From Candidatus Thioglobus sp. (GTDB taxonomy: Bacteria > Pseudomonadota > Gammaproteobacteria > PS1 > Pseudothioglobaceae), in NCBI GenBank assembly GCA_028345055.1, contig JAOMCO010000002.1, positions 62,001-126,000 on the forward strand: DNA of 64,000 nucleotides. The letters run 5' to 3'. The notes under the pieces were generated by a model. The model was not told where the DNA came from and made no database searches. It saw nothing but the letters and a program-made list of their open reading frames with translations. Position numbers and translations under genes: made by a program. Of the stretch, positions 17,654 to 42,982 are shown piece by piece (position 1 is the stretch's first letter; every line of letters starts with the position of its first letter).

Positions 17654-18061
17654 TTAACCATAATGAGTCATTAAATCTGCAATTCTTTTCAAAAAAATTG
17701 CATGCTCACATGCCTCTTCGGATGAATAAATTTCATCAAGCATTTCTACTGGCTTGCCTCTAATTCCAGAAGCAATACCAATTTTGTACTGCTCAAACAT
17801 TCTAATACATATAGTGACATATTTCCCGGCCATTGGTGCTCTTCGCATCTTATCGAGAATTGTCCTAAGATCATGGCTATGTTCTATCGCAGCCCTGCCA
17901 TTTGCAGGAGCTGTTCCTACAGGGCTATTTCTATGCTCTGAGATCAATCTTCTTCGTGATTCATCATCAAATAAAAGTGGCATTACATAGGTCCTAGTAA
18001 TATAGTCATCTGTCTCAGTATGAGACTCATTTGCTATTACACCTTTTTCTTTATCTAGCAT
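17654..18061 (-). CDS. Dimethylformamidase small-subunit-like protein, copy 2
   Basis: This 135-residue soluble protein has a C-terminal half (residues ~75-128; APMAGKYVTIC, RGKPVEMLDEIYSSEEACEHA) that aligns with the upstream neighbour at 18092-18460 (GPIAGAYVAVC, RAKPLILFEDKVFDSPEEAQTEA). The two are paralogues. Known dimethylformamidase has a ~132-residue small subunit beside a ~760-residue large subunit, matching this size and position after the large-subunit gene. I infer a small or regulatory subunit. The N-terminal half has no counterpart in the other copy. It is last in the minus-strand run (30-bp gap). Confidence 0.6.
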   Translation of the reverse strand: MLDKEKGVIANESHTETDDYITRTYVMPLLFDDESRRRLISEHRNSPVGTAPANGRAAIEHSHDLRTILDKMRRAPMAGKYVTICIRMFEQYKIGIASGIRGKPVEMLDEIYSSEEACEHAIFLKRIADLMTHYG

Positions 18062-18091: not shown

Positions 18092-18460
18092 TTAATGGTT
18101 ACGACATGGAACTGTCTCACCTCGTTCTTCCTTTAGTCGAACTGCTTCAGTTTGAGCTTCTTCAGGTGAATCAAAAACTTTATCTTCAAAAAGTATCAGT
18201 GGCTTTGCTCTATCAGCATTTAACTGGCCAACACACCATTCTTTTCCCTCAATTGTACAAACAGCTACATATGCACCTGCAATTGGACCATAGTGTCTAT
18301 TATTAAGAGTAAATAAACATTCAGCCAAATCACTCACCTTATCCTCATCTAATTCACTAATTACATTTTTTTCTAATTTATTGAGAGGTTTATTGCTAGT
18401 ACCCACTACTGATTTACCTACTGGTGGATCCATCATATCGGGGTGTTTATTAATAGTCAT
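18092..18460 (-). CDS. Dimethylformamidase small-subunit-like protein, copy 1
   Basis: This 122-residue soluble protein is encoded 23 bp after the large-subunit gene and is preceded by AAGGAG. Its core (residues ~60-112: GPIAGAYVAVCTIEGKEWCVGQL, AKPLILFEDKVFDSPEEA) is shared with the 135-residue product downstream. Length and position match the small subunit of the (alpha-beta) dimethylformamidase complex. The subunit call is inferred from context and size. No catalytic motif is expected, because the iron site is in the large subunit. Confidence 0.6.
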   Translation of the reverse strand: MTINKHPDMMDPPVGKSVVGTSNKPLNKLEKNVISELDEDKVSDLAECLFTLNNRHYGPIAGAYVAVCTIEGKEWCVGQLNADRAKPLILFEDKVFDSPEEAQTEAVRLKEERGETVPCRNH

Positions 18461-18483: not shown

Positions 18484-20862
18484 TTATGGCAAAGGGCCAT
18501 CTTTCAAAAATCCTCTAATTGCATTTTCAGTAATCCGAGAAACATTATTATTGTAGTTATTATGAGAGAGACTTCCACACCAAGACAATGATCCAGGTGC
18601 AAAAACTCCTCCATCATTTGGAGTTTTATAAAAAATCATATCTGCCCTTACCATAGGATTTTCAGTGCCTCCGCCATGATAACCTCGAACAGAAAAGTGG
18701 ATTTCTTCATTAACTTGAAGCATTAAATTAGTATGTCCAACAGAATGTGCGAGTAAATAAGAATCATGTGGAGTTCCAAATTCAACATCATATCGATCCA
18801 GCTCTAAACCTGCCGCTCCTCCACCAACAAGTCCAAAATCACCAATCTTTTCACCATTTCCAACTCCTTCCATTAGCCAAGCTGTTTCAGGCCTCTCACT
18901 ATCTTTATCTCTAACGTAATATGATGAAACATCAAAACCATACGCTGTAAAGGTCAGCCCACATAACTTACTTGGAATTCGCCCGCGAGCACGCCACATA
19001 CCGCCATATTTGCCATCAAAAGCATTATTGTATTCTCCTGGGTTTGCTGTCCATGCTCTCGTTCCAGCCTCACCTTTTCGTACCTCAATAATATTTGAAT
19101 TATCTGGATGATATTCACTAATCCAATAAAAACCATTTGCTCCTAAATAAATCCATCGACCGCCATCCTGTTGATATTTTTCATAAGCAGAAAACATCTT
19201 CTCTGAAGTATATTCAGGATGACTTCCAGTGAGAACAGTTTGGTATTTATTTAATAGCCCAACTCCTTCACGATTCAAATCCTCATCAGTATGGATGTCA
19301 AAATCAAAGTTTTTTTCTTCTAACCAATCAACAAGATGAAGATCTCCATTAAGTTGCCATAGTGATGGAGACAACCAATGACGATACTTAGGGCGCATAT
19401 TTAAAATAGGCCTCAGTCTTGATGAATAGCAGACACCACTTCCATCTGAATGCAATGAATAAGTTGAAAGTCCATATTCTCTATGCTCATTTAAATACAA
19501 ATCTGCTGCAGTCATAACAGGAACCTTTCCAGCAAGTAACTCTGCTACAACACAATTTGTACAAAGATTATCATTTGAATAAGCTAAGTAAGAATTTGTA
19601 GGCAAAATAAAAGCTAATTTAGAAGTTGCCTTCCCTCTTGGAGGTCTTATAACAAAGGGAATATAATCCTCCGTTTCTGGAGAATCCTCTCCTCCAATTC
19701 TTAATCGAGCAGCATAAACTCCACTCTTTAAACCATCTGGAATTTTTAACTCAAAATCAACATCCCAACGTGCATCGTCTATATCATCGTCATGAAAATG
19801 AATCGCGCCATATTCTTCAGGTTTATGATGATAGATAATCTCGTCACCAGTCCAGTTAAAACCTGTCATTGCTCTGACAGGCATATTTATAATGAAACCA
19901 TTTAGTCTAGACGGTGATGTATCAATAATGCAAGTTGAGGCAATATTTGTTGTTATATTTGCATGAAAGTCCCAAGCTCCTACTACATCATTTCGAAGTT
20001 CAGCTTTACAGCCCTTGTAACCACGAGCTAAAGATTCAATTTCAGACCTCGACAAAGCCCTTCTAGAAAGCCTTGGACGATCTATCTTGCCATTATAGGT
20101 ATTAATCTGTTCTGGTAATTCAATTGGCTCAAGAACCTCTTTAAAATGACCCCCACAAATATGCCTTCCTGATCTTTCAATTTTTGTACTTGCTGCAATT
20201 AAGAATGGAGCATCATTTATTCCCGGCTTGATACTATTAATAGATTCAATAACTGCAGTAGTCTCTTCAGCTGGATTCAGTAAACCTTGGCCTAGACCAC
20301 CATTTGTTGAGGTAACAACAGGCTCTTGATAAAGAGTTACTTTACCTGTCCTTGAATCATAACTGACAGCTACTAGATACCATACCTTACGTAAAAGCTT
20401 TTTATCAGTTGAAAGCCTCATAACCTGTCCACTGCCATCTCCAATCTCTACTGAAAGACAATTATTCTCATCAATAAACAATCCATAGCCACTCTTTGTT
20501 TCCTCAACCCATTTAGTCAGAATTCCTTGTCTTTGTTTTTGAGGTGTTCCAAGTCCTTCAATTGGCGTAGTTGGGAAGATATAACATTGCAAAGTAAAGC
20601 TTTCAACATTAAGCCTCTCATCTTGAGGAACAATGACATAAGAACCCCCATGTATCCTCTGGTTTCTTCCAGGATAATTTTTATTGCATTCTGCATTAAT
20701 TTCTTCCTCTTTATAACCTGGGCCCTCAGGATTAGTATCTCCATGAATTAATCGAACAATTTGAGTTTCATAAACTTCGTTTTCTTCTGAGTTAATATAG
20801 AACTTTAAATTGTCCCCAGGACAAACAGAGTATTTGTCGCTATAACCAGTAATTCTTAACAT
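18484..20862 (-). CDS. dmfA2: N,N-dimethylformamidase-like large subunit
   Basis: This 792-residue protein has an N-terminal beta-rich region, a LamG/concanavalin-like domain (~85-290) and a C-terminal amidohydrolase domain (~410-790). The Paracoccus enzyme binds iron through Tyr399, Tyr440 and Glu521, with His519 and Glu657 nearby (from memory). Here Tyr428 (SYLAYSND), Tyr468 (STYSLHSDG), Glu550 and His548 (GSHPEY), and Glu687 (AAGLELDR) fall at almost identical spacing. The family hydrolyses N,N-dimethylformamide to formate and dimethylamine; the natural substrate here may be another N-substituted amide. No signal peptide, so cytoplasmic. It lies 39 bp after the flotillin gene. Confidence 0.82.
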   Translation of the reverse strand: MLRITGYSDKYSVCPGDNLKFYINSEENEVYETQIVRLIHGDTNPEGPGYKEEEINAECNKNYPGRNQRIHGGSYVIVPQDERLNVESFTLQCYIFPTTPIEGLGTPQKQRQGILTKWVEETKSGYGLFIDENNCLSVEIGDGSGQVMRLSTDKKLLRKVWYLVAVSYDSRTGKVTLYQEPVVTSTNGGLGQGLLNPAEETTAVIESINSIKPGINDAPFLIAASTKIERSGRHICGGHFKEVLEPIELPEQINTYNGKIDRPRLSRRALSRSEIESLARGYKGCKAELRNDVVGAWDFHANITTNIASTCIIDTSPSRLNGFIINMPVRAMTGFNWTGDEIIYHHKPEEYGAIHFHDDDIDDARWDVDFELKIPDGLKSGVYAARLRIGGEDSPETEDYIPFVIRPPRGKATSKLAFILPTNSYLAYSNDNLCTNCVVAELLAGKVPVMTAADLYLNEHREYGLSTYSLHSDGSGVCYSSRLRPILNMRPKYRHWLSPSLWQLNGDLHLVDWLEEKNFDFDIHTDEDLNREGVGLLNKYQTVLTGSHPEYTSEKMFSAYEKYQQDGGRWIYLGANGFYWISEYHPDNSNIIEVRKGEAGTRAWTANPGEYNNAFDGKYGGMWRARGRIPSKLCGLTFTAYGFDVSSYYVRDKDSERPETAWLMEGVGNGEKIGDFGLVGGGAAGLELDRYDVEFGTPHDSYLLAHSVGHTNLMLQVNEEIHFSVRGYHGGGTENPMVRADMIFYKTPNDGGVFAPGSLSWCGSLSHNNYNNNVSRITENAIRGFLKDGPLP

Positions 20863-20901: not shown

Positions 20902-22896
20902 TTAGGACTCATCGCCCTCTACGTCATCCTTTTTTTCATTATTTTTATAATCACCAAGCAGATTCTTGATATTGCTAATCTCTTTTGGAGACATACCAAT
21001 TTCATCAAGCAGATTATCAATAAATGGAACCTGGGCTCTATATCGCATAGCTGCATTAACTATATTTTCAGGTAAGCCTCCCCCTTCATTGGTAGAAGGT
21101 CCCACAAAATCAGAGTTACCACTATTTGATTTAAATCCTGGCATTCCATTCAATTCATATATTTTGATATCATCAATGTTTTCCATTGGCTTAACAGCCT
21201 CCCTAATGATTGAATCAAGATTTCTAGCCAATTCCATTCTTAGATCGCTTTGTCTACTTTCATCACTTCGAACATTTTCAGCTTCATTCAACATTAACTT
21301 GCCAGCAGCATCAATCTCATAACGAAGCTTGCTTGCTAATGAAGCATGTCTTTCTGCTTGTTCATGCTGCTCAGCAGCCTCTTTTTCAGCTCTGGCTTTT
21401 GTAGTAATTTGAATTGCTTCACTTTCCCCTTCTTTTTCTGCATTTATTAATTGCAATTTTTTATCTCTTTCTGCAACTTCAACTTCTTGAGCAGAAAGCA
21501 CCTGCTCTTCAGCTACCACTACTTGAGCTCTAGCATGCTCTTTGCCCTCAACAGCAGTTAACACTTCGACCGTTTTAGCAATAACTTCAAGTTCACGTTC
21601 TTTCTCCTCTATTTCAAGATTTTTTCGTTTTTGAATTTCTGAAGCTTGTGCTTTTTCATCATTTTCTATCCTTGATATTTCAATGATTCGCTGTTGCTGT
21701 ATTTGAAGTTTTTTAACTTCTTCTTGTGCTTTAATTTGGGCCTGCTCAGCCTCAATATATCTCTCTGATTCAACTTTAAGAACCTCAGCCTTCTGGATAG
21801 CTCTTTGAGCTGAAACTTCTTCTTCCTGCTTCAGTCTTGCAAATTCATTTTCTTTTTTAATCTCTAGTGATCTAATTTCAGCTTCAAGATTTTTTTCTTT
21901 AATATCAATCTCTGTTTGCCTTTCAATCTCATTGCGAAGTTTTTTACGTTCTTCAATCTGTAAAGTTAGCTCATGTTCTCTTAAAGAACGTTCTACCTCA
22001 ATAGTATCTTGTTGCTGAATGCGAGTTTTCTCAATATCCTCTTCTGCTTTGATTCTAGCTTCTTCTGCTAAGCGCTCTTGCCTGGCAGTCTCAATAGCTA
22101 TTTCAGTTCGCTCTTTATCTCTTTGTTTTGCAATTTCTCGCTCTTGTAGTAATCTAGAGAATTCTCTATCTTGATCTATTTCAAGTGACTTTTGCTCTGC
22201 CTCCAAATTCTTACTTCTAATTCTTATAGCTGTATCTTGTTCAATATCATTACGCTTCTTCTTTCCAGCTTCAATCTGTTCAGTTAATTGAGTCAGACCT
22301 TGAGCATCAAAAGCATTGGATGGATCAAATACCTCTAGGCCAGCCTGATCTACGCTCGTTAATGAGACAGCCTCTAGCTCTAGACCTGTTGAACCTAAGG
22401 ATTCTGCAACAATTTCTTTAACTGCTTTAATATATGCACCACGCTGCTCTTGAATCTCTTCCATAGACATCTGTGCTGCAACAATACCTAATGCATCGAC
22501 AAAACGTCCTTGTACTAAATCCCTTAGACTTTCAGGCTCCATAGTTCTTTTACCAAGAGTTCCTGCCGCAATCGATACTGCCTCCTTGCTTGGAGTTACA
22601 CGAACATAAAATTCAGCAACTATCTCAACACGCATTCTATTTTTTGTTATGAAAGATTTATCGCCACCACGTTTAACCTCGATACGCAATGTTCTCATTC
22701 CAACAGTCGTTATGTTGTGAATAATTGGCAATACAAAGGCACCACCACTTATGACAACTTTTTCACCTCGAAGTCCCGTTCTTACAAAAGAAACCTCTTT
22801 AGATGATCTTCGATACAACCAATGCAGCAAATAGACAAAAATTGCTATTGCCAATGCTGTCAAAATAATAGTTGCAATAATGTCTGCACCAGTCAT
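20902..22896 (-). CDS. Flotillin-like SPFH membrane-scaffold protein
   Basis: This 664-residue protein has an N-terminal membrane anchor (residues ~5-28), an SPFH/band-7 domain (~33-200), a long charged coiled coil (~205-560) and a C-terminal flotillin region. Flotillins oligomerise and organise membrane microdomains. The coiled coil contains a gap-free 106-residue tandem duplication: residues 213-~315 repeat as 319-~420 (KNLEAE at 229 and 335, EFSRL/EFARL at 245 and 351, RIQQQ/QIQQQ at 292 and 398). It lies 21 bp after the rhodopsin gene, the flotillin-rhodopsin pair reported for marine streamlined bacteria. Confidence 0.9.
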   Translation of the reverse strand: MTGADIIATIILTALAIAIFVYLLHWLYRRSSKEVSFVRTGLRGEKVVISGGAFVLPIIHNITTVGMRTLRIEVKRGGDKSFITKNRMRVEIVAEFYVRVTPSKEAVSIAAGTLGKRTMEPESLRDLVQGRFVDALGIVAAQMSMEEIQEQRGAYIKAVKEIVAESLGSTGLELEAVSLTSVDQAGLEVFDPSNAFDAQGLTQLTEQIEAGKKKRNDIEQDTAIRIRSKNLEAEQKSLEIDQDREFSRLLQEREIAKQRDKERTEIAIETARQERLAEEARIKAEEDIEKTRIQQQDTIEVERSLREHELTLQIEERKKLRNEIERQTEIDIKEKNLEAEIRSLEIKKENEFARLKQEEEVSAQRAIQKAEVLKVESERYIEAEQAQIKAQEEVKKLQIQQQRIIEISRIENDEKAQASEIQKRKNLEIEEKERELEVIAKTVEVLTAVEGKEHARAQVVVAEEQVLSAQEVEVAERDKKLQLINAEKEGESEAIQITTKARAEKEAAEQHEQAERHASLASKLRYEIDAAGKLMLNEAENVRSDESRQSDLRMELARNLDSIIREAVKPMENIDDIKIYELNGMPGFKSNSGNSDFVGPSTNEGGGLPENIVNAAMRYRAQVPFIDNLLDEIGMSPKEISNIKNLLGDYKNNEKKDDVEGDES

Positions 22897-22917: not shown

Positions 22918-23637
22918 TTAGATCTTTTTATTAATTCCATCTTTTCTAGCTTGGGTGTCATTCATAGCAGCTCTATATACAACAAACCCAAAAATAATTT
23001 TGTTCAAAAAGTCAGCCAAGTTATAAATAATATTAAGACTATTAACATCTACTCCACCACCAAGATTGTTGATGAAATAGCCAAGTGGATAAATTGCCCA
23101 GCCAATAGTTAATATTAGCCTTAAGCCATTAAATGCTAGATGTGTTGCCTCATTACCACTTTCTATATTGCAGCGACTTGCTTCTCCCATATAAAGCTCA
23201 CCAAGAATATAGAGCCAGCCCACCACTCCAATAATGAAACCTAGTGTTGCGCTCATATAGCCTGCCGCGCCTAAAAACTCACCTATCACCATAACTAGGG
23301 TTCCAATCAGTAGCCTCCAAAATAGGGCAGATGAAACTTTAGTTACTGCAGTTAGAATGACATAAAACAGAACGACCTGCATAGAATGTGTAAGTATCCA
23401 ATCTAAATACCTAAGAACAATAGGTGCTTTACCTGTATCAACCCACATCCCTTGAACATAGTAATAGAATATTGCTGAAATCAACATTGTGACCCCTAAA
23501 AGGGTCATAGTTGTATGCCATCTTTCATCAACCCTATTTCTTTCTAGTAGAAAGAAGATTGATGCACCAATCATTGCCATAGAAAGTAGCCAAAAAGTGC
23601 CGCCTACAATGTCAGTTGGTAATAATGTAGTGTTCAT
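22918..23637 (-). CDS. Divergent proteorhodopsin, flotillin-associated type (motif D-T-L)
   Basis: This 239-residue seven-helix rhodopsin keeps the retinal Schiff-base lysine Lys213 (ADFLNKIIFG), Asp209, Arg76 and the acceptor Asp79 with Thr83 (RYLDWILTHS). The proteorhodopsin donor Glu108 position is Leu90, the spectral-tuning position 105 is Gln87 (blue type) and the His75 position is Phe. The D-T-L motif and the adjacent flotillin match the flotillin-associated rhodopsins described from Pseudothioglobus and SAR11 single-cell genomes. Efficient proton pumping is doubtful; a sensory or structural role is possible. It is transcribed with the flotillin and amidase genes. Confidence 0.93.
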   Translation of the reverse strand: MNTTLLPTDIVGGTFWLLSMAMIGASIFFLLERNRVDERWHTTMTLLGVTMLISAIFYYYVQGMWVDTGKAPIVLRYLDWILTHSMQVVLFYVILTAVTKVSSALFWRLLIGTLVMVIGEFLGAAGYMSATLGFIIGVVGWLYILGELYMGEASRCNIESGNEATHLAFNGLRLILTIGWAIYPLGYFINNLGGGVDVNSLNIIYNLADFLNKIIFGFVVYRAAMNDTQARKDGINKKI

Positions 23638-23802: not shown

Positions 23803-24975
23803 TTAAGCGTCAGGATCATATTCCTCTGGATTAGCAGGTCTTAAGAAGAAATTATCAAGATAATCACTTCCACCCCAAATATCAATTCCAGGGTTATACC
23901 AATCAGTTGAATTACGATCACAATCTGCTCCCATCATTTGTTCGACATCAGCATAAGTGATTTTCTGAGGTGGAACAAGAATAGACTGAATCTTAGGACC
24001 TTGTCCTTGCATAGTTCTCATCATGATATTCCAGCCAAGCTCAATATCATCTCCTGGAGGCCATGTTTGAATTGCAGCACTAATATATTCTGGATTATTA
24101 CGCCAGTAACATAATGCTCCTAGTTCACCACCTATTGATAGAGGAACCATTTCACGTCCAGATTGCTGAAGTGCAGCTAAAACCCCTGTCTCACCAGATG
24201 ACTGAACTGCCATTCCATCAAGTTGCCCTGGGTGAGTTGCAAGCCATTTTTGAGTTTCAGCTTGTCCAACTTGGGATGTCCACATGTGTGCTATTTGTCC
24301 AGTGACTTTAATACCTGGATATCTAGACAAACCATCAAGTACACCGGCATTTTGTGAATCTGAAGCTGAATAGCCAGGTATACCTTCTACGACTAGAATG
24401 TTACCTTCACCACCTACCTCTTCAGCCATCCATGTACCTACGTCAAACCCTGCTTGATGATAGTTAACTGATGAGTTAACTGAAAGTGGCGAAGTGGTAT
24501 ATCCAGTAAAAGAAAATACTGGAACACCTCTGTCAAATGCATACTTTATAGCTTGATTCAAAGCAGTAGGATTTGAACAACAGATAATAATTGCATCTAC
24601 ACCTTGATCAACTAATTGTCTAATTTGCTGAATCTGCAAAGCATCTTTAAGATTTGACTGAGTAACAACGATGTCATTCAGTAATCCCAGTTCCTGCCAC
24701 TTAGGTTTAATTTCATTCATTAAACGATTCATAGCACCTTTACGCCATGTATTACCCGCGTAAGTACTGGCATAACCAACAGTCCATGGTGGTGAACGAT
24801 CACTCTTCCAATCTCTAAATGCACTATCATCAAGAGGTTGCATAGGATCCATCAAGTCCATGTTATAAACTGCATCAGTAATATCAGACGGTACTTCATC
24901 TAATCCTGCAAATGTCATACTAGTAAAACCTAGTGACAATAAGCAAGCCATAATCATTTTTGATAATTGTTTCAT
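23803..24975 (-). CDS. Periplasmic substrate-binding protein, ribose-type ABC family
   Basis: This 390-residue protein has a signal peptide ending at TFA (residue 23) and a two-lobed type-I periplasmic-binding fold. The segments YASTYAGNTWRKGAMNRL, QIRQLVDQGVDAIIICC and FDRGVPVFSFTG resemble Peripla_BP_4 sugar-binding proteins. It is first in the minus-strand run, with a strong ribosome site (AGGAGAG) and its own promoter at 25102-25129. A 165-bp gap separates it from the rhodopsin gene, which would allow higher expression of the binding protein. It presumably serves the ABC ATPases and permeases nearby; the ligand may be an amide rather than a sugar. Confidence 0.87.
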   Translation of the reverse strand: MKQLSKMIMACLLSLGFTSMTFAGLDEVPSDITDAVYNMDLMDPMQPLDDSAFRDWKSDRSPPWTVGYASTYAGNTWRKGAMNRLMNEIKPKWQELGLLNDIVVTQSNLKDALQIQQIRQLVDQGVDAIIICCSNPTALNQAIKYAFDRGVPVFSFTGYTTSPLSVNSSVNYHQAGFDVGTWMAEEVGGEGNILVVEGIPGYSASDSQNAGVLDGLSRYPGIKVTGQIAHMWTSQVGQAETQKWLATHPGQLDGMAVQSSGETGVLAALQQSGREMVPLSIGGELGALCYWRNNPEYISAAIQTWPPGDDIELGWNIMMRTMQGQGPKIQSILVPPQKITYADVEQMMGADCDRNSTDWYNPGIDIWGGSDYLDNFFLRPANPEEYDPDA

Positions 24976-25276: not shown

Positions 25277-25960
25277 ATGGAAAACAAAAAGGATATTAGG
25301 CCTACTAAATATAAAATTGTTATTGCTGATGATCACGCCCTAGTTAGAGGTGGCCTAGAATTAGTTGTTAAAATGGCTGTTCCTAATGCTGAAATATTTC
25401 AAGCAAATAATTTTGATGAAACAATTAATGTTCTTCAATCCAACTTCTCAATTGATCTTGTTTTGCTTGATTTAATGATGCCAGGGATGTGGAGTGATAG
25501 TATTCAAAGTATTACTCAAAAATTCCCTGATGTTCCTATTGTTATTGTCTCTGTTAAAGAAGACTTTGATTCTATTCATAATTCTATCTCATTAGGTGCT
25601 TCTGGATTTATACCCAAAACTTCTGCGCCAGAAGTAACAATAAGTGCTATTCAACTTGTTCTCTCAGGAGGAGTATACATACCACCTCATGTTCTTAAGC
25701 CACAGAATAAAACTGTGCTTCGCAACCATGAATCAAACGATTTTGATGGCTTCAATAGCCTATCAAAAAGACAAAAACAAGTCCTGGACTTAATTAGTTT
25801 AGGAAAATCTAATCAAGCTATTGCTGATGAATTAGGCTTAACCATTCCAACAATTAAAATGCATGTTTCAGCAATTCTCAAAAAATTGAAGGTCAAAAAT
25901 AGAACTGAAGCTGTTTCTATTTATACGAATTTAGAAAAATCATCAGGGGTGTTATCTTAA
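25277..25960 (+). CDS. NarL/FixJ-family response regulator
   Basis: This 227-residue protein has a receiver domain (residues ~12-130) with the acidic pair Asp18-Asp19 (IADDHALVRGG), phospho-acceptor Asp65 (LVLLDLMMPG) and Lys114. A LuxR-type helix-turn-helix follows at ~158-222 (SKRQKQVLDLISLGKSNQAI). It is preceded by GGGAGA. It is divergent from the binding-protein operon across a region full of GTATG repeats, which it probably binds. The partner is most likely the hybrid kinase at 28734-30803, with the TorT-like gene 26 bp downstream. Confidence 0.93.
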   Translation: MENKKDIRPTKYKIVIADDHALVRGGLELVVKMAVPNAEIFQANNFDETINVLQSNFSIDLVLLDLMMPGMWSDSIQSITQKFPDVPIVIVSVKEDFDSIHNSISLGASGFIPKTSAPEVTISAIQLVLSGGVYIPPHVLKPQNKTVLRNHESNDFDGFNSLSKRQKQVLDLISLGKSNQAIADELGLTIPTIKMHVSAILKKLKVKNRTEAVSIYTNLEKSSGVLS

Positions 25961-25986
25961 ATCATCGAAATTAAATAAATTTGATT

Positions 25987-27177
25987 ATGATTATTAAACC
26001 AATAAAATTTCAGTTAAGATTAATATTATTAGGTTTATTCTTTATTCTCAATGCACCTAATTTTGTATATGCCTATGATGGAAGTTATTGGTCCCAAAAC
26101 GTTAATGTATTTAATTTTTCTTGTACAGATGGTGATGTAGATTGCTGGATTGATGAAAGAAATGCATTAGATACATTACCATTAGTAATGTATGAACCTC
26201 TCAAAGCATCTAAAGTTAAGAAAAAGCATCATATATGCGTTTCTTTTCCCCATCTTAAGGATTCTTATTGGGTCGGCGTTGCCTATGGAATTATTTCTGA
26301 GGGAAAACGTCTTAATCAAAAAATTACTTTGTTTGAAGCAGGAGGCTATACAAATTTAGCCACTCAGTTAAACCAAGTTGATGACTGTCTTAATAATAAG
26401 GGTGACGCTTTAATTATTGGCCCTATCTCAAGCAATGGAAACGCCAAACAAATTGACATCATTAGAGAAAAAGGTATCCCAGTTGTTATTATTATTACAG
26501 GTATCAATACTGCAGTTGATGCAAACTCTCTTCAAAGCTTTGTCAATATGGGCTATACATCTTGTAAATGGGTCGCCGATCAGGAGAAAGATAATAAAGA
26601 AAAAACAAATATCGTATGGTTTCCAGGACCTCCTGGGGCTGGCTGGTCTATCGCTTCTCATGAAGGGTGCCTGAGTGCATTAGAGGGTACAAATATTAGA
26701 ATATTAGAAACTAATTGGGGTGATACTGGAAAAGCCATTCAATTAAAATTGGTTGAAGAAATTCTTCTAAACCATGCTTCAGGACCTGAACCAGATTTTA
26801 AATATATTGTAGGTACTGGGACCACTATCGAAGCTGCTGTTGGAGCACTTAGAGCGAGAAAGCTTGGTAAAAAAATTAAACTAGTATCAACATATTACAC
26901 TCCTGGTATTGATATGTTTATTAAACGTGGTCTAATTTCAATGGCGCCCTCTGACCAAATGATTTCTCAAGCGATTATTGCTGTTGATCAAGCTGTGAGG
27001 CTTTTAGAAGATCAAAAAATGGCAACATTAGGTAGGCCAGAATATAATAAAACAGGTCGAATTACAGAACATGTTCAACAGCCAATACTAATTGTAACTC
27101 CAAAAACTCATGAACAATTTGACTCATCAACAACACTAGCCCCAAAAGGCTGGACTCCAATATTTTCAGTGGACTAA
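25987..27177 (+). CDS. TorT-like periplasmic sensor protein
   Basis: This 396-residue protein has a signal peptide ending near VYA. The body carries the TorT pattern CVSFPHLKDSYWVGVAYGI followed by LFEAGGYTNLATQ and DALIIGPIS. In E. coli TorT binds TMAO and signals through the kinase TorS to TorR. I chose the ATG at 25987; a TTG two codons upstream is also in frame, and neither has a clear Shine-Dalgarno site. It lies between the response-regulator gene and an ABC ATPase gene, so it may pass ligand information to the hybrid kinase, serve the transporter, or both. The ligand is unknown. Confidence 0.85.
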   Translation: MIIKPIKFQLRLILLGLFFILNAPNFVYAYDGSYWSQNVNVFNFSCTDGDVDCWIDERNALDTLPLVMYEPLKASKVKKKHHICVSFPHLKDSYWVGVAYGIISEGKRLNQKITLFEAGGYTNLATQLNQVDDCLNNKGDALIIGPISSNGNAKQIDIIREKGIPVVIIITGINTAVDANSLQSFVNMGYTSCKWVADQEKDNKEKTNIVWFPGPPGAGWSIASHEGCLSALEGTNIRILETNWGDTGKAIQLKLVEEILLNHASGPEPDFKYIVGTGTTIEAAVGALRARKLGKKIKLVSTYYTPGIDMFIKRGLISMAPSDQMISQAIIAVDQAVRLLEDQKMATLGRPEYNKTGRITEHVQQPILIVTPKTHEQFDSSTTLAPKGWTPIFSVD

Positions 27178-27198
27178 AAATTAATTCAAGTTAATAAT

Positions 27199-28746
27199 AT
27201 GTCAAATACCAATATTCCACTATTAAAGCTTAAGAGTATTTCTAAGCAGTTTTTTGGATCTTCAGTGCTTAATAATATTGACTTTGATCTTTATCCAGGA
27301 GAAGTTCATGCAATCTTTGGACAAAATGGTGCAGGTAAGTCAACTTTAATTAAAGTTGTAACTGGTGACATTCAACCATCAAGTGGTAGCATAATCATTA
27401 ACAATGAACAATTAAAGATACACTCTGTTCACAAAGCCAAAGAACTAGGGATTAGTGCAGTATTTCAAGAGTTCTCTTTAGTACCTCAACTCACTGTTGA
27501 AGAAAATTTATTCCTAGGATCAAATACTTCTAAAGGTTTTTTCCTTAATAAGAAAAAATTACACCAAGTAGCCTGTGAGACTCTAGATCAGCTTGAATTC
27601 TCTATCAAAGCTGATGAAAAAGTGATAAATCTTTCGCATGCAGAAAAAAGAATGGTTGAGATTGCAAAAGCTTTTCATACAAAACCTTCAATCATGGTTC
27701 TTGATGAACCAACTGCCTCATTAGCAGAAAATGAAACAAATCAGCTTTTTTCAATGATTGAAATACTAAAAAAAGAGGGTATTGGGATTATTTATATTAC
27801 TCATCGCATGAATGAGATATACAAAATTGCTAATCGCATTACAATTCTTCAAGATGGTAACGTTATTGATACAAGTTCAATTAAAAATATTAATGAACAG
27901 AAATTAGTAGAATTAGCTACTGGGCGAAATATTACTACTTTTTTCCCAGAAATAAAAAAACAGCCTGGGATAAAAATTCTAGACATAAAAAACTTATTTT
28001 TAAGTAATACTTTTGTGAGTGATGTGTCAATTAATGTTAGTGCTGGAGAGGTTGTGGGTATTGCAGGACTTGCTGGCTCAGGTAAATCTACAATTGGACG
28101 AGCGTGCTTTGGTATTAGTAAAATTTCTTCAGGAAAAATTAGATATTTAGATGATTTGATTTATGACAGTTCAAAACAAATAAATGATCTCAGTCCGAGA
28201 TCAATGCTTGATCGAGGAATGCTTTATTTACCCTCAGATAGAAGAGCAGAAGGACTAGTTATGGAGCAAAACATCAGAGAAAACATTTCACTTCCATCGC
28301 TGGGTCTCCCAAAATTTTCCAGTGGCTTTATTGTCAACAGAAAAAAAGAAAAAGACGTTGTCGAAAAAATTGGGGAACGCCTCAATTTTAATTCACAGGG
28401 TATTGAAAATAAAATTGAACAGCTCTCTGGTGGAACTCAACAAAAAGTTATGCTTGCAAAAAGTTTTGCTCGTGATGTTCAACTATTTATTCTGGATGAA
28501 CCAACTGTAGGTGTTGATATTGGAACTCGAGTCGCAATTTACGAGATCATAAAGGAATTTTGTGAATCAGGAGGAGCAGTTATCTTAATCTCCTCAGATC
28601 TATCAGAAATAGTAAATTTATCACATAGAATTTATATTGTAAGTGAGAAGAATAAATGCATTGAATTTGACTCTGAAGATTGCAATGAGCATCTTATACA
28701 AAATTATTTTCTTAACTCAATGGTTGAAGAAAATTATGCATCTTGA
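27199..28746 (+). CDS. Ribose-type ABC transporter ATPase (two NBDs)
   Basis: This 515-residue protein has two fused nucleotide-binding domains, as in RbsA/MglA. First half: Walker A GQNGAGKST (~38-46), signature NLSHAEKR, Walker B VLDEPTASL. Second half: an intact Walker A GLAGSGKST (~292-300), signature LSGGTQQK and Walker B ILDEPTVG. It powers uptake with a ribose-type permease, probably that at 30900-31913. It follows the TorT-like gene by 21 bp, and its end overlaps the convergent kinase gene by 13 bp. Confidence 0.93.
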   Translation: MSNTNIPLLKLKSISKQFFGSSVLNNIDFDLYPGEVHAIFGQNGAGKSTLIKVVTGDIQPSSGSIIINNEQLKIHSVHKAKELGISAVFQEFSLVPQLTVEENLFLGSNTSKGFFLNKKKLHQVACETLDQLEFSIKADEKVINLSHAEKRMVEIAKAFHTKPSIMVLDEPTASLAENETNQLFSMIEILKKEGIGIIYITHRMNEIYKIANRITILQDGNVIDTSSIKNINEQKLVELATGRNITTFFPEIKKQPGIKILDIKNLFLSNTFVSDVSINVSAGEVVGIAGLAGSGKSTIGRACFGISKISSGKIRYLDDLIYDSSKQINDLSPRSMLDRGMLYLPSDRRAEGLVMEQNIRENISLPSLGLPKFSSGFIVNRKKEKDVVEKIGERLNFNSQGIENKIEQLSGGTQQKVMLAKSFARDVQLFILDEPTVGVDIGTRVAIYEIIKEFCESGGAVILISSDLSEIVNLSHRIYIVSEKNKCIEFDSEDCNEHLIQNYFLNSMVEENYAS

Positions 28747-30803
28747 AAATGGATTAAGTGTGACAGCATTGCTCTAAACTTTGCAGGCTGAATTGGCTTT
28801 AATAAAACTGGAAAACCCTGATCAATAATACTTTGCACATGGTCCCGATCAACATCTCCAGTCATAATGACGCAAGGAATGGAAGCCTGCAATTTTTCTT
28901 GAATTAAATAAGTAAGATCAATACCAGACGCGTCCCCAGGCAAACGATTGTCTGCTAGGATAAGGTCTGGATTCTTATATGGATTTTCTTCAATTAAATT
29001 TATAACTTCATCTTTATTTCTTGCAGTATCAACTTTACATCCCCATGATTCTAGTAGCTGCTTAGTTGCCTTTAAAACATCCATATCATCTTCAATTAAA
29101 AGAATATTTGCTCCTGATAAGTTCATAATATTCATAAAAGCTTCATTTTGTTCTAAATCTTTATTTTTCTCTGCTAACTCAACTGCGACAGAGAAACAAG
29201 AACCATTACCAAGTCTTGAAGAGCTCTTGATAGAATGCCCTAGACTATCAGCCAAACGTTTTGCAAGCGCGAGTCCTAAACCTAGACCTTTCCCCCTATC
29301 ACGCTCCTTATTTTCAACTTGATAAAAATCTTCATAAATTAATGGCATCTGATCATCTGATATTCCACAACCTGTGTCCCAAACTTCAATTACTACTTTA
29401 CCATTCCTCTTTCTACATCCTATCAGAACTGATCCTTCCTTGGTATAGCGAATAGCATTAGACATAAAATTTCCCAATATTCGCTCTAACAATGCTGGAT
29501 CACTCTTTACATAATAGCCAGATGGAACAACTCTAAATTCTAACTCCTTGTCTTTTGCAAGTGGAAGGAATGATTGAAAGATACTAATCAAAATATTATT
29601 TACTGAAAAAATTTCATGTCTTGGCTTAATTGCGCCTACTTCCAATTCAGACACGTCTAGAAGTGCATTCAGTAACCTTGCTGTTGAAATTGAGACAGAG
29701 TTTATATCTTCAATAATTCTGAGTATTTCCTTATCTTTAACTTTTGATTGTAAAGCTGCAATATACATTTGCATTGCATTTAAAGGTTGTCGCAAGTCAT
29801 GACTTGCTGAAGCCAGGAAAACTGACTTAGCTTTATTTGCTCTTTCAGCATCTAATTTAGCATTCTGAAGCCCTTCACTCTGCTCCCATAAATCATTCTT
29901 AAGTCTATTGAAACTTCGACCCATTCTTCCAAGTTCGTCCTGTCTAGATAAGATATTTTGCTCATCTTCTATTTTCTCTACTTTATGCAATGGAGTATAT
30001 CTATTAATAGAGTCTGTTAGCAATTGCAAAGGTTTTGAAATATTCATTCTGACAATGACTAAAACCATTGAAATTACAAATAAAAGAGCTATAAGACAAG
30101 TAATAACAATATAGCTAATTGCAATTCGCTCCACATAAACTATTTGAGCTTTAGAGGCATTAATTATTTCCTCTAATTCATTGTTTACTTTTTTGGCTTG
30201 AAGCAATAGAAGATTTTCTGAAGTAGCTATTTTATCTAGATCACTCATATCAATTGTGAGTATTCCAAGATTTGTTTCAGCAAATAAATTATTAACCACT
30301 AACTGATAATACATCTGATTGACTTTTCTTAACTCATAGAGCTCAGAAAGCAGCTTTTCTTGATGAAATAAAATTATATCTTTGTCACCTAGACCCTCAT
30401 TGTTTACTCTTTTTACAAAAGACTCAGTATCCGCTATAGATTTCTTCAGATTTTGGTTAGATAAAATAAATTCAGTTTGAATTTCTTCGTTTTCTAATAA
30501 TTGATTAAACTTTTCATAAAAGCTTGCTTCATCTGAGTCTTGGTTAACTATTTGGCTAACTGTAATAAATAACTCCTTTACACTTATACTTTGCTTATAA
30601 ACATTCTCATCAATGGTATTGACTGATTCAATTAATGGAATAGTAATAGACGACATTTGCTTAGTCTCATTCCCCACAGTATAAACTTGAGAAAAAGCAA
30701 CAAACATAACTGCCATAAAACCCAGAATCTCTATAACTAAAAGGGATAATATTTTTTGATTAAGAGATAATCTATTGAATAATTTTTGCTTGATTATTTC
30801 CAT
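28734..30803 (-). CDS. Hybrid sensor histidine kinase
   Basis: This 689-residue protein has a membrane helix (~20-42), a helical periplasmic sensor (~45-225), a second helix (~226-250), a HAMP linker (~250-305), HisKA with phospho-His335 in SASHDLRQPLNAM, an HATPase domain (G boxes WDTGCGIS, GKGLGLGLAL) and a C-terminal receiver with Asp618 (LILADNRLPG). The helical sensor between two membrane helices resembles TorS, which listens to TorT. No Hpt domain is present. It is transcribed after the permease at 30900 (96-bp gap). It probably works with the regulator at 25277. Confidence 0.92.
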   Translation of the reverse strand: MEIIKQKLFNRLSLNQKILSLLVIEILGFMAVMFVAFSQVYTVGNETKQMSSITIPLIESVNTIDENVYKQSISVKELFITVSQIVNQDSDEASFYEKFNQLLENEEIQTEFILSNQNLKKSIADTESFVKRVNNEGLGDKDIILFHQEKLLSELYELRKVNQMYYQLVVNNLFAETNLGILTIDMSDLDKIATSENLLLLQAKKVNNELEEIINASKAQIVYVERIAISYIVITCLIALLFVISMVLVIVRMNISKPLQLLTDSINRYTPLHKVEKIEDEQNILSRQDELGRMGRSFNRLKNDLWEQSEGLQNAKLDAERANKAKSVFLASASHDLRQPLNAMQMYIAALQSKVKDKEILRIIEDINSVSISTARLLNALLDVSELEVGAIKPRHEIFSVNNILISIFQSFLPLAKDKELEFRVVPSGYYVKSDPALLERILGNFMSNAIRYTKEGSVLIGCRKRNGKVVIEVWDTGCGISDDQMPLIYEDFYQVENKERDRGKGLGLGLALAKRLADSLGHSIKSSSRLGNGSCFSVAVELAEKNKDLEQNEAFMNIMNLSGANILLIEDDMDVLKATKQLLESWGCKVDTARNKDEVINLIEENPYKNPDLILADNRLPGDASGIDLTYLIQEKLQASIPCVIMTGDVDRDHVQSIIDQGFPVLLKPIQPAKFRAMLSHLIHFQDA

Positions 30804-32068: not shown

Positions 32069-32095
32069 ATACCTATACTTTTGGATGTTTTTTGT

Positions 32096-34291
32096 ATGGA
32101 AATTGGAGAAGAAAAACTATTAAATGAGGACGCTTCTAAAGATTCAGGAATATTAAAGGCTTTTCCTGGAGAGCTTTATGTGAAGAATGTTCACAAATCC
32201 TTTGGAGTAACCAAAGCTCTAGCTGATGTTAGTTTTACTGGTTATTTTGGTGAAATTCATGCAATTATTGGTGGAAATGGCTGTGGAAAGAGCACTCTTG
32301 CAAAGGTTTTAGCAGGGGTATTGCCAATCGATTCTGGAAAAGTTTCAATTAAGGGGGCACACCCTTCAACTCCAAAAGAATCTCGTAACCTTGGCGTAGC
32401 TATGGTTTTTCAAGAAGTACTTGTTGCTGATGAAGCCTCAGTAGTTGATAACTTATTTATTGGAGTAGATGGCTTTATCACTAAAAACTTATCTGACAAA
32501 GAAAAGCAAGATAAAGCTAGAGAATTACTTAGTGAACTTGCTGATGAAGAAATTGATCCATTAATGCCTGCTGGAAACCTACCTCTTAGTATCAAAGCAT
32601 GGATTACTATTGCCAGGGGCTTGCTAAGAGAGCCTGACGTATTAATTCTTGATGAGTCTACTGCCGCTCTGGATTTTGATTCTACGGAAAGACTCTTTGA
32701 AAAAATGCGTGAATTACGCGATAAAGGTTCAGCAGTTATTATTGTCTCTCACCGCATAGCAGAACTAGTCAGAATTAGTGATCGCTGCACAGTCATGCGA
32801 GATGGTATTGATGTTGGAGTATTAGAAAAAGATGAAGTCACAGAAAAAAACCTTTTGCGTTTAATGACTGGAAAAGATCAAAAAACAGAAAAAACCAAAG
32901 ATGAAGCACATCAAACAAAATATTCTCAAGTCTCTCTCAAAACAAAAAATATGCAAGTTTGGCCTGATAGTGAAAAGTCTGACTTTGAATTACTCAAAGG
33001 TGAAATTGTAGGAGTGACTGGACTAGATGGTCATGGGCAGGATGATTTTATACGTATTCTTGCTGGTGTTGCTAATGCATATGAAGGTTTCACAGAAGTA
33101 GGCATTAATCATGGTCATAAGTACTTCTCAATTAAAAGCCTTGAAGACGCAATCAAACATGATATTGAGTTTGTTTCAGGTGATCGAAAGCGAGAAGGAA
33201 TCCTTCCAAATCTTAGTATTATTGAAAATTTAGGTATTTCGATGTATCACAAATTTAGCAAAATTCCTGGTGTACGATTTATAGACTGGTCAGCTATAAA
33301 TGATGTTGTTGATTGGGAAGTTGAACGACTTGCAATCAAAACTGGTCCTAGAGAAAACCTAATAACATCCTTAAGTGGTGGTAACCAACAAAAAGTTATG
33401 TTGGGAAGAGCATTTGCAACTCAACCTAAGATATTAATCTTACTTGACCCTGCTAGAGGAATTGACTTAAACACTAAGTTGGACCTTTATAAGCAATTAA
33501 GAGAGTTTGCAGATGATGGAAATTCAGTGGTCTACATGTCAAGTGAGCTTGAAGAGTTTATTGGTTTCTGTTCTCGCGTAGTTGTTTTTCGTGAAGGAAG
33601 TATTTTCGAAACATTTACTGATGAACAAATTAACGCTGATGGAATCCTAGAGTCTATGTTTGGACATCGACAAAAATCTGAACCAGAGAAAGTAACAAAT
33701 AATCAACATGCCAATAAAAATGATGTATCTACACTAAACAATCAAACTAAAAAAACCCAGCCTGACAATAAATTGGAGACTGAAGTGAAAAAAAATACTA
33801 TAAGTAAATACTTTAACAATCAGACCGAAAATATAAATCCTATAAAAGTTTCAAAGAAAGATTTCTCCTCTCAAGACGAAGATCAATTTAATAAAATATT
33901 GAGCTCAACAGAGAAAAATAGTAACAGAAAAAAATATGAAACAAAACAGAAAAATAATCCAAATCCCAAAATATATGAATATTCAGAAAATGATTCGAAA
34001 AATTTTGAAGACCTCATTACTTCAGGCGAAAAGGTAGTTAAAAGCAAAGGCAAAAGTAGCTTTCGAAAGAATAAAAATAATGAAGCTTATTCAAGCTCTG
34101 ATGAAGAACTATTTAATAAATATCTATCTTCAACTGAAGATAAAGCAGATGATCAAATTCTTGATGGTCTAGAAACCAAGAGAAAAGAAGAGCATTTAAT
34201 AGATCAAAAACCAAATACATCTGAATCTAAAACATTTGAATATAACGAGAAAGATGTCGCGCAATTTGAAAAGCTCATGTCAAAAAAATGA
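32096..34291 (+). CDS. Ribose-type ABC ATPase with long repeat-bearing C-terminal tail
   Basis: This 731-residue protein has two fused NBDs (~20-515). NBD1 has an intact Walker A (GGNGCGKST) and LILDEST. NBD2 has GLDGHGQDD for Walker A and LILLDPARG where LILDEPTRG is usual, so hydrolysis there is doubtful. After ~520 comes a charged, low-complexity tail of ~200 residues with four related short motifs: DFSSQDEDQFNKILSSTE, YEYSENDSKNFEDLI, AYSSSDEELFNKYLSSTE, FEYNEKDVAQFEKLM. Such tails are not part of normal RbsA proteins. I take the ATG at 32096; a TTG at 32081 sits too close to the predicted transcript start. Confidence 0.88.
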   Translation: MEIGEEKLLNEDASKDSGILKAFPGELYVKNVHKSFGVTKALADVSFTGYFGEIHAIIGGNGCGKSTLAKVLAGVLPIDSGKVSIKGAHPSTPKESRNLGVAMVFQEVLVADEASVVDNLFIGVDGFITKNLSDKEKQDKARELLSELADEEIDPLMPAGNLPLSIKAWITIARGLLREPDVLILDESTAALDFDSTERLFEKMRELRDKGSAVIIVSHRIAELVRISDRCTVMRDGIDVGVLEKDEVTEKNLLRLMTGKDQKTEKTKDEAHQTKYSQVSLKTKNMQVWPDSEKSDFELLKGEIVGVTGLDGHGQDDFIRILAGVANAYEGFTEVGINHGHKYFSIKSLEDAIKHDIEFVSGDRKREGILPNLSIIENLGISMYHKFSKIPGVRFIDWSAINDVVDWEVERLAIKTGPRENLITSLSGGNQQKVMLGRAFATQPKILILLDPARGIDLNTKLDLYKQLREFADDGNSVVYMSSELEEFIGFCSRVVVFREGSIFETFTDEQINADGILESMFGHRQKSEPEKVTNNQHANKNDVSTLNNQTKKTQPDNKLETEVKKNTISKYFNNQTENINPIKVSKKDFSSQDEDQFNKILSSTEKNSNRKKYETKQKNNPNPKIYEYSENDSKNFEDLITSGEKVVKSKGKSSFRKNKNNEAYSSSDEELFNKYLSSTEDKADDQILDGLETKRKEEHLIDQKPNTSESKTFEYNEKDVAQFEKLMSKK

Positions 34292-34337: not shown

Positions 34338-36527
34338 ATGGAATTAATTGAAAAACAACAATCAAAATCAAGTCCAAGTACCTATCTCATAGTTCCGATA
34401 GTTATTTTCTTTTTACTCTTGATATTTGCTACCCTCAGAGGACCATACTTGGTTTCAAGTACTGGTTTTGGTGGACTTATTATCGTAGTAACTCCGCTAA
34501 TTTTAGCTACTTACGCATTGACTATCATTGTAATGGCTGGGCGTGCTAGTGTCGATTTATCAATTGGCCCCCTGCTTAGTTTCATTAATGTAGGAATGAT
34601 TCAGCTAATTGGGGTAGGTTTTATGGATTCACCAATTGCTCTTTTCTTATATGCAATTGGTGTTGGTGTTGCATACCAAGTCCTAATGGCCCTCATTATT
34701 GTTTTTGTCAGAGTTCAACCCATCATTGTTGCATTGAGTGGATACCTTTCATTGGTTGGCTTGAATCTTATCATAATGCCTCGTCCAACTGGTCTAGCAC
34801 CAGACTGGATGTATGATTGGGGTGCAGGAATTAATATTATTTCACCCGTTTTAATTATATTGATAATAGCCACAGCAGCATGGTATCTGCTTGCACAAAC
34901 GGCTTTTTGGGGTAATCTAAAAATGATGGGGTCAGATGAGCGAGCTGCCTATACTAGTGGAGTTAATGTTAATCTGGTTCGAATTGTTGCTCATGCAATT
35001 GGTGGCGTTTATGCTGGACTTGCAGCTATAACTTTCACTTCATTAATTAGTTCTGGCGACCCCTCTCAAGGGACAACCTACACGCTAATGGCCGTTACAG
35101 CACTTGTGCTCGGCGGTGCAAATTTAGCTGGTGGTCGAGGAAGTGCCTTTGGAGCATTACTTGGCTCGCTTAATATTTTTTTAATTACCTATGCACTTTC
35201 AACGTTTAACTTTGGCAAGATGCAAGCCTTTGTGACTGATATGTCTTATGGTCTTATGCTGGTTGTTTCATTATTGATAAGTCTTGCAATACCTTTGCTC
35301 CAAAAACGCGCTCGAGGACTATCCCCAGGATTGGTATTTTTAGTTCTTGGAATAATTACAGCAGGCGTTATGGTCCATGCTTCAATGGATCAGTCAATGG
35401 GAATTAAAAGATTTGCAGCTGCTAAAGCTTCAACTGGAACTGAAGACGGACTATCAGCAGGCACAATTATTTTGTTTTTAGTAGTTGGAATAGCAGTTGT
35501 CTCTTATATTGTAAGAACACTATTTAAATATATTAGCGCACCGATGGTTGGATTTATTATTGTATTAATCGTAACTGCTCTAGGTTTAATTTTTAATCCA
35601 GAAGCTCCAAGTGATTCAGCTTTAATTTCTTCAAGCCTAAAAACTATTGGTGCTGATTATTACTCTATGAGTATTTTTGGATTGGAATCAATTTCTCAAT
35701 CACAATACTTTTCTTTTAATACACTGACAAACTCTACCTACACATTAATTGGAATAGTTGGAGTAATTTTATTAACATCATTAATTATCCTGATTATGCT
35801 TCCTGATACGAATGCTAAGACTAAAAAAACCTCAACAATTTTATTTATTTGCACAATACCTATTATTGCAATAGGTGCACTGTTCTTTGAAAACGCAGAT
35901 CAAGGCTATTTAGCTAGCAATTTTTCTGGTGAAACTTACGCTATTCTTTTGGTTGCTGCACTTCTATTTATTATTACTATTCCGATGGTAAAAAACAAAT
36001 TCAACAACATTAACAATTTGTTTATAGGAGCTATATCTATATTAGCTTTAATTGTTATATATTTCTTTGCAACTGATAGCACTCCTATGCATGAGGTTGC
36101 AAAAGGTAGCATTGTAGTAGCAGGCAAGGTGCTAAATGCTCAGCATCCTATTATCCCAATAGGAATAGAGCCTATAGCAGCCAAGATTATCGAATACAGT
36201 GGTCCAATGCGAGTCATGAATGAATCTAAAGGACTAAATATTGTTTCGGAGATTGCTTATTGCGCTTTTATGGTTGTTTTACTTCATATATTTTTACGTC
36301 TAGCTATGGGAGAAACTAGCTTTAAAAGTTTTTGGAAATACTGGTATATACCAACCTTTGCTGTAATTGTTTGGAGTGCTCTGTTTTATGCAATTGGTGT
36401 GCCTTTATGGCAAATAATTGTTGTTATTGCTATTGCAATAATTTCAGCACCAAACGTGATGCACATAATTAGCACCTACATAATAGGTGAGCAAAAAGAT
36501 GATGATATAAAAAAATGGGAAGGATAA
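34338..36527 (+). CDS. Oversized ribose-type ABC permease
   Basis: This 729-residue integral membrane protein is more than twice the usual permease length. Residues ~1-325 are a BPD_transp_2 permease (IIVMAGRASVDLSIGPLLSF, VRVQPIIVALSGYLSLVG, LVLGGANLAGGRGSAFGALL). Residues ~330-729 add roughly ten further hydrophobic segments with no motif I recognise. It lies 46 bp after the tailed ATPase gene and 34 bp before a second permease, so the two may form a heterodimeric channel. The extension may bring extra subunits or place the complex in a membrane domain (inference). Confidence 0.85.
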   Translation: MELIEKQQSKSSPSTYLIVPIVIFFLLLIFATLRGPYLVSSTGFGGLIIVVTPLILATYALTIIVMAGRASVDLSIGPLLSFINVGMIQLIGVGFMDSPIALFLYAIGVGVAYQVLMALIIVFVRVQPIIVALSGYLSLVGLNLIIMPRPTGLAPDWMYDWGAGINIISPVLIILIIATAAWYLLAQTAFWGNLKMMGSDERAAYTSGVNVNLVRIVAHAIGGVYAGLAAITFTSLISSGDPSQGTTYTLMAVTALVLGGANLAGGRGSAFGALLGSLNIFLITYALSTFNFGKMQAFVTDMSYGLMLVVSLLISLAIPLLQKRARGLSPGLVFLVLGIITAGVMVHASMDQSMGIKRFAAAKASTGTEDGLSAGTIILFLVVGIAVVSYIVRTLFKYISAPMVGFIIVLIVTALGLIFNPEAPSDSALISSSLKTIGADYYSMSIFGLESISQSQYFSFNTLTNSTYTLIGIVGVILLTSLIILIMLPDTNAKTKKTSTILFICTIPIIAIGALFFENADQGYLASNFSGETYAILLVAALLFIITIPMVKNKFNNINNLFIGAISILALIVIYFFATDSTPMHEVAKGSIVVAGKVLNAQHPIIPIGIEPIAAKIIEYSGPMRVMNESKGLNIVSEIAYCAFMVVLLHIFLRLAMGETSFKSFWKYWYIPTFAVIVWSALFYAIGVPLWQIIVVIAIAIISAPNVMHIISTYIIGEQKDDDIKKWEG

Positions 36528-36530
36528 ACG

Positions 36531-36572
36531 ATGGGTATGACAAGTATTAAGAGGAATAAAAGTGGAAACTAG
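36531..36572 (+). CDS. Possible 13-residue leader ORF overlapping the next permease start
   Basis: ATG at 36531 follows GGAAGG and reads MGMTSIKRNKSGN before a TAG at 36570-36572. It overlaps the GTG start at 36562 in another frame. The arrangement suggests translational coupling rather than a functional peptide, and expression is unproven. Confidence 0.3.
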   Translation: MGMTSIKRNKSGN

Positions 36573-38018: not shown

Positions 38019-38057
38019 ATGCCAAAAAACTATATAAGAATAAAGAAAAATGACTGA
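38019..38057 (+). CDS. Possible 12-residue leader ORF overlapping the symporter start
   Basis: A strong AAGGAG (38003-38008) precedes ATG 38019, which reads MPKNYIRIKKND and stops at 38055-38057, overlapping the symporter start at 38050 by 8 nt. The symporter ATG itself has no good ribosome site, so it is probably reached by re-initiation. Peptide function is not implied. Confidence 0.35.
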   Translation: MPKNYIRIKKND

Positions 38058-41795: not shown

Positions 41796-41798
41796 AAT

Positions 41799-42980: not shown

Positions 42981-42982
42981 AA

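Follow-up and report, generated by a model that had tools for sequence, protein, structure and literature searches.

A flotillin-associated rhodopsin of Candidatus Thioglobus with a probably obstructed retinal pocket and an importer gene neighbourhood

The gene at 22918..23637 (minus strand) of the window, the whole 64,000-nucleotide stretch of Candidatus Thioglobus sp. DNA analysed here, encodes an opsin of 239 amino acids with the motif D79-T83-L90 and the lysine K213, as assigned from the reading frame, Pfam and alignment. Its sequence identifies it as the DTL-type flotillin-associated rhodopsin (FArhodopsin, FAR) already described from Pseudothioglobus (PMC10308929). With evenly balanced confidence, we propose that this opsin is likely retinal-free, or nearly so, and would be the integral membrane partner of a flotillin scaffold organising an importer patch for a formamide- or amide-type substrate. 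FArhodopsins are common among the abundant bacteria of the ocean, yet no function has been established for them. The present comparison offers three handles on it, namely two pocket positions that split blocked from possibly open versions, the occurrence in larger-genome hosts, and importer genes that recur nearby and point toward transport and not light energy. The seemingly more open pocket in the versions of larger bacteria makes the evolutionary order testable.

The opsin gene and its retinal pocket

The sole Pfam match of the open frame is Bac_rhodopsin (107 bits, cut-off 24.6). Alignment to GPR and BR places R76, D79, T83, D209 and the retinal Schiff-base lysine K213 (codon AAA, 22999..23001, minus strand; GPR K231) among the retained residues, together with W80, Y183 and W180. 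The proton donor is lost, L90 (codon at 23368..23370, minus strand) standing at the position of GPR E108, F57 at that of H75 and Q87 at that of L105. Further differences are H84 (codon CAT, 23386..23388, minus strand; GPR V102), E120 (codon GAG, 23278..23280, minus strand; GPR G138), S54 (A72), S85 (P103) and A124 (E142). An earlier note, made from the letters alone, had every one of its residues and their numbering right, as well as the clean frame; these further differences and the neighbouring flotillin gene are additions to it. F57 is not a family trait, since His occupies this position in the SAR11 and HIMB59-type FArhodopsins as well as in two of the seven gammaproteobacterial ones.

Relatives with 92-96% identity occur in the single-cell genomes AG-390-E17 and SCGC AB-629-P17, and a further relative, 87% identical, carries the label SUP05 cluster. 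By these relatives and the gene cluster, the window is assigned to Pseudothioglobus. Substitution rates (dN 0.024 and dS 0.77 against the nearest relative, dN 0.044 and dS 1.08 against the next) indicate strongly purifying selection and therefore a maintained gene; the flotillin and the proteorhodopsin of the genome show a similar pattern. The motif DTL belongs to the set DTT/DTL/DNI that replaces DTE in FArhodopsins. The opsin also lies in a clade of its own inside the proteorhodopsin family (support 100/99 against 17 proteorhodopsins), in same-strand tandem with a flotillin (Flot and Band_7 domains), in a genome with a bona fide proteorhodopsin elsewhere, and in a conserved FAR cluster with formamidase, symporter and importer genes as in SAR11 and HIMB59-type loci. 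The placement given in the earlier note, among flotillin-associated rhodopsins of DTL type from marine single-cell genomes, agrees with PMC10308929 and with the adjacent flotillin.

The retinal lysine and the Asp counter-ions of proton-pumping proteorhodopsins (K213, D79, D209) are present, but their carboxylic donor at position 108 is not. With L90 in its place, the argument of the earlier note that fast pumping is improbable holds. A normal light-driven pump for protons whose motif is merely unusual, compatible with the retained counter-ion and lysine, is highly improbable in view of the lost donor, the pocket substitutions, the distinct clade and a tested DTT relative devoid of pumping (PMC10308929).

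The closest structural reference is PsFAR (PDB 9R21, cryo-EM, five chains), with 225 of 237 residues matching (95% identity). Entries 9R21-9R23 enter this analysis through their PDB sequences and titles; by both, 9R23 differs from PsFAR in just the two substitutions H84V and E120G, and we infer that its makers aimed at reopening the pocket. Retinal binding by the window opsin is doubtful because its H84 and E120 are the very positions changed in 9R23. H84/E120 is found in 7/7 gammaproteobacterial FARs and F84/Q120 in 6/6 SAR11 FARs, against V/G in 17/17 proteorhodopsins. The 13 FArhodopsins compared first and the 17 proteorhodopsins have no residue in common at position 84 (H/F versus V) or 120 (E/Q versus G). 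HIMB59-type FArhodopsins have F84, yet G120. As published, a DTT-type FArhodopsin expressed in E. coli neither bound retinal nor gave a pH change attributable to pumping, and a modelled FArhodopsin pocket clashes with retinal (PMC10308929). An AlphaFold2 model computed here from a 9-sequence alignment was poor (mean pLDDT 46), and a Foldseek run on it served just for the PDB titles of entries already matched by sequence.

From these substitutions, H84 and E120 probably obstruct the pocket of the window opsin despite the kept K213, and its binding of retinal is probably poor or absent. The spectral type is therefore moot; the label 'blue type', which the earlier note derived from Gln at position 105, presupposes bound retinal, and this is what H84/E120 make doubtful.

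A pocket closed to retinal might hold another ligand, such as a lipid, a fatty acid or a carotenoid derivative, which would make the opsin a chemosensor or a lipid-responsive flotillin partner. A retinal-free proteoopsin has been solved with decanoate bound (PDB 8CNK, by its title), the pocket residues vary between FAR lineages but for the most part agree inside a lineage, as would suit adaptation to a ligand, and non-light stimuli and carotenoid derivatives were raised by the 2023 authors (PMC10308929). This reading is rather unlikely, as the opsin has neither a transducer domain nor a fused effector and no ligand is known.

A second rhodopsin and the supply of retinal

A whole-genome search of the assembly that contains the window (1.31 Mb, 74% complete) located the second, canonical rhodopsin that the earlier note had advised looking for. 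It lies on another contig (G000:C23:102638-103297), has the motif DTE with Leu105 and His75, and is nearly identical to PDB 9R22, titled 'light-driven proton pump PsPR'. In another FArhodopsin-bearing genome (G019; L018 and L019), the canonical proteorhodopsin is split over two overlapping frames, by a frameshift or an assembly error. Scans of IMG/VR returned no FArhodopsin and only one viral proteorhodopsin. A 35-kb contig that IMG/VR lists as viral carries a DTE-motif proteorhodopsin gene (L099:2001-2672).

In the explanation favoured by the 2023 authors (PMC10308929), the FArhodopsin assists the canonical proteorhodopsin by forming mixed oligomers with it in a flotillin raft, aiding pumping in dim light. 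Both rhodopsins are encoded in the genome of the window and in every SAG host of that study (PMC10308929). Against this, FAR genes are linked to importer genes and not to proteorhodopsin, and a second rhodopsin was not found in two gammaproteobacterial hosts of 4.1 Mb (G033) and 5.4 Mb (G034), a weak argument as these genomes are of unstated completeness. An accessory role is thus very unlikely.

Retinal supply was approached through its synthesis genes. Blh (PF15461) was found in none of the 29 genomes of the genus, with a search that matched six of the searched SAR11 genomes, and phytoene synthase in none of the tested genus members or the two large gammaproteobacterial hosts, with a search that matched SAR11. 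Both rhodopsins of the window's genome would need retinal from outside or from another synthesis route.

These results bear on the idea that retinal is bound only in the native flotillin microdomain, making the opsin a slow photosensor or a weak pump. The residues K213, D79, T83, D209, R76 and W180 are kept, the failure in E. coli could stem from the missing flotillin, as the 2023 authors noted (PMC10308929), and the proteorhodopsin of the same genome points to retinal being available in the cell. However, H84 and E120 occupy the 9R23 positions, the donor is lost, no retinal was bound by the DTT-type relative expressed in E. coli (PMC10308929), and retinal synthesis genes (Blh and phytoene synthase searches) were not found in the genus. 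Retinal binding restricted to the microdomain is accordingly judged unlikely. The proposed retinal-free role, for its part, has to accommodate the fact that strong purifying selection has kept K213, D79, D209, W80, Y183 and W180, a surprising set to retain without retinal.

Flotillin pairing and the importer cluster

The flotillin gene (20902..22896, minus strand; 664 aa with SPFH and Flot domains by domain matches) follows the opsin gene after a spacer of 21 nt. Co-transcription of FArhodopsin and flotillin has been reported in SAR11 (PMC10308929) and is probable for the pair in this organism. Of the 29 genomes of the genus, five have both FAR and its flotillin and the rest have neither (Fisher p=8e-6, ignoring relatedness). 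The two genes are adjacent in every FAR locus examined, whether gammaproteobacterial, SAR11, HIMB59-type or high-GC alphaproteobacterial, and they remain paired even in clusters whose importer permease genes sit apart from them, the window included, a point against the proposed importer-patch role. A possible substitution of the opsin for a YqiJ/NfeD-like flotillin partner was rejected: YqiJ-like genes, named by reading, precede some related flotillins, but most of the closest lack them.

The Pseudothioglobus FAR has been described as a DTL type in flotillin tandem, with LuxR and hybrid kinase genes and a dimethylformamidase in the cluster and a second proteorhodopsin (PMC10308929). Five transport components recur across FAR clusters: a binding protein, an ATPase, two permeases and a sodium symporter. 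In the window, they correspond to a periplasmic binding protein (23803..24975, minus strand; Peripla_BP_4, 127 bits), a fused ABC importer ATPase with a long C-terminal tail (32081..34291, plus strand), two BPD_transp_2 permeases (34338..36527 and 36562..37986, both plus strand) and a sodium:solute symporter of the SSF family (38050..39981, plus strand); the binding protein, ATPase and symporter are conserved in FAR clusters. In other lineages, permease 2 is directly upstream of the opsin. This arrangement is found in two other gammaproteobacteria, one SAR11, two HIMB59-type and three high-GC alphaproteobacterial loci (L024, L025, L026, L119-L123), 'HIMB59-type' being assigned from the DNI motif, reported for HIMB59 (PMC10308929), and low G+C.

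On the other side of the flotillin, the gene at 18484..20862 (minus strand) encodes an enzyme resembling the large subunit of N,N-dimethylformamidase (Pfam DMFA2_C, 317 bits; PDB 6LVB, E=2e-191). The Paracoccus enzyme has the Fe ligands Y399/Y440/E521 and the catalytic residues N547/E657 (PMC7686228); mapped from these, the window protein retains Fe ligands Y428, Y468 and E550 together with catalytic N576 and E687. A 135-aa homologue of the small subunit is encoded at 17654..18061 (minus strand; 6LVB_B, E=1.7e-5 as a single sequence and 6.9e-7 as a profile). Between them lies a conserved 122-aa protein (18092..18460, minus strand) with no Pfam or PDB match; comparing its profile with that of the 135-aa family (probability 72%, E=3e-5) makes it probably a diverged small-subunit paralogue. 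The large subunit and the two small proteins are present in every long-enough FAR locus except those of the high-GC branch. The enzyme link is not universal, because in this branch the 20 kb covered did not include a formamidase gene.

Three genes were seen solely in the Pseudothioglobus form of the cluster and encode a LuxR-type response regulator (25277..25960, plus strand; also in PMC10308929), a TorT-like periplasmic binding protein (25981..27177, plus strand) and a hybrid histidine kinase (28734..30803, minus strand). The TorT-like protein scores 288 bits against NF008185 (cut-off 200) and 216 bits against TIGR02955, below the cut-off of 310. Together (25277-30803), these proteins resemble a ligand-sensing system, in this cluster version only. 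No cognate transducer adjoins the opsin, whose flanking genes encode the flotillin and the periplasmic binding protein; the hybrid kinase gene is 5 kb away and missing from other FAR lineages. Of the sensory or structural role foreseen in the earlier note, the structural half, with flotillin, fits the neighbourhood better, and the sensory half is not supported, with no transducer adjoining.

Elsewhere in the window, genes read from their translations as malate thiokinase subunits, a malyl-CoA lyase-type enzyme and a serine-glyoxylate aminotransferase-like enzyme (40908-43936 and 54768-55883) suggest that serine-cycle C1 metabolism is encoded in the same stretch. Two long tetratricopeptide-repeat proteins, also read from translations, are encoded at 9635-12424 and 15695-17443; by reading, the C-terminal part of one is O-GlcNAc-transferase-like and that of the other sulfotransferase-like.

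The importer and formamidase genes recur, and by this neighbourhood the opsin-flotillin pair is placed with import and amide hydrolysis. It is tempting to propose that a seven-helix protein derived from proteorhodopsin, in a gammaproteobacterial host of the Pseudothioglobus/SUP05 type, would have lost its cytoplasmic proton donor (E108 to L90) and, through H84 and E120, most of its access to retinal, with likely little or none bound, K213 notwithstanding. Probably pentameric, presumably also in the cell, it would be made together with the adjoining flotillin and act as the integral membrane partner of the flotillin scaffold. The resulting patch would hold the importer, that is the ABC permeases and the sodium symporter, and the imported substrate, of formamide or amide type, would be hydrolysed by the neighbouring iron amidohydrolase. 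We know of no physical contact between flotillin and opsin or between opsin and importer.

Larger-genome hosts and comparison with known systems

The 2023 survey found marine FArhodopsins in three streamlined taxa only (PMC10308929). FArhodopsin clusters in larger genomes (4.0-5.4 Mb) are beyond the range of that paper. Two hosts are gammaproteobacterial MAGs, of 4.1 Mb (46.6% G+C contig) and 5.4 Mb (61.5% G+C contig). Contamination as the source of these contigs was judged unlikely, their G+C being near that of sampled host contigs (46.6% versus 43-48% and 61.5% versus 63-66%). Hydantoinase A/B genes are found inside the FArhodopsin cluster of both MAGs (L024 and L025). Three alphaproteobacterial genomes of 4.0-4.5 Mb carry FAR regions of 63-66% G+C, with FArhodopsin-flotillin-importer clusters (L119:9579-10304, L120:11842-12567, L121:10907-11632) that are basal in the tree. 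Their opsins have V84, A120, a donor position occupied by V, T or I, and G141 versus W; the retinal lysine is kept.

In a maximum-likelihood tree with the 17 proteorhodopsins as outgroup, the FAR clade is recovered (100/99) and all FArhodopsins except L119-L121 group together (100/98). Since L119-L121 branch earliest and have V84/A120, donor loss and flotillin pairing would be older than closure at positions 84 and 120; pocket closure thus probably came after both. The earlier note had put donor loss first. The loss itself is borne out by L90, but putting it first is incomplete because an equally donor-less branch keeps the proteorhodopsin-like V84 and a small residue at 120. Somewhat short of even confidence, it is suggested that the family did not begin retinal-less: its earliest branch, already paired with flotillin and importer, donor lost, with V84, a small residue 120 and the lysine, may bind retinal, and closure (H/F84, E/Q120) would have come later, toward the gammaproteobacterial, SAR11 and HIMB59-type members, in a graded series whose early flotillin partners were possibly light-responsive and whose later ones are retinal-blocked.

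Among known systems, PsFAR (9R21) is nearest: D79, T83, K213, H84 and E120 are common to both proteins, and 12 substitutions set them apart, including M90 in PsFAR versus L90 in the window. The FArhodopsins of Pseudothioglobus, SAR11 and HIMB59 (Haro-Moreno et al. 2023, PMC10308929) are otherwise of the same kind, with a spacer to the flotillin of 16 nt in the published SAR11 members versus 21 nt here. PsPR (9R22) and the green and blue proteorhodopsins (GPR, 4JQ6) resemble the window opsin in fold, retinal lysine and counter-ions at ~40-50% identity; unlike it, these proton pumps retain E108, V102 and G138. Finally, both subunits of the Paracoccus N,N-dimethylformamidase (6LVB) have homologues in the window, with the catalytic equivalents kept, but the window cluster differs in encoding an extra 122-aa small-subunit-like protein beside a single large subunit.
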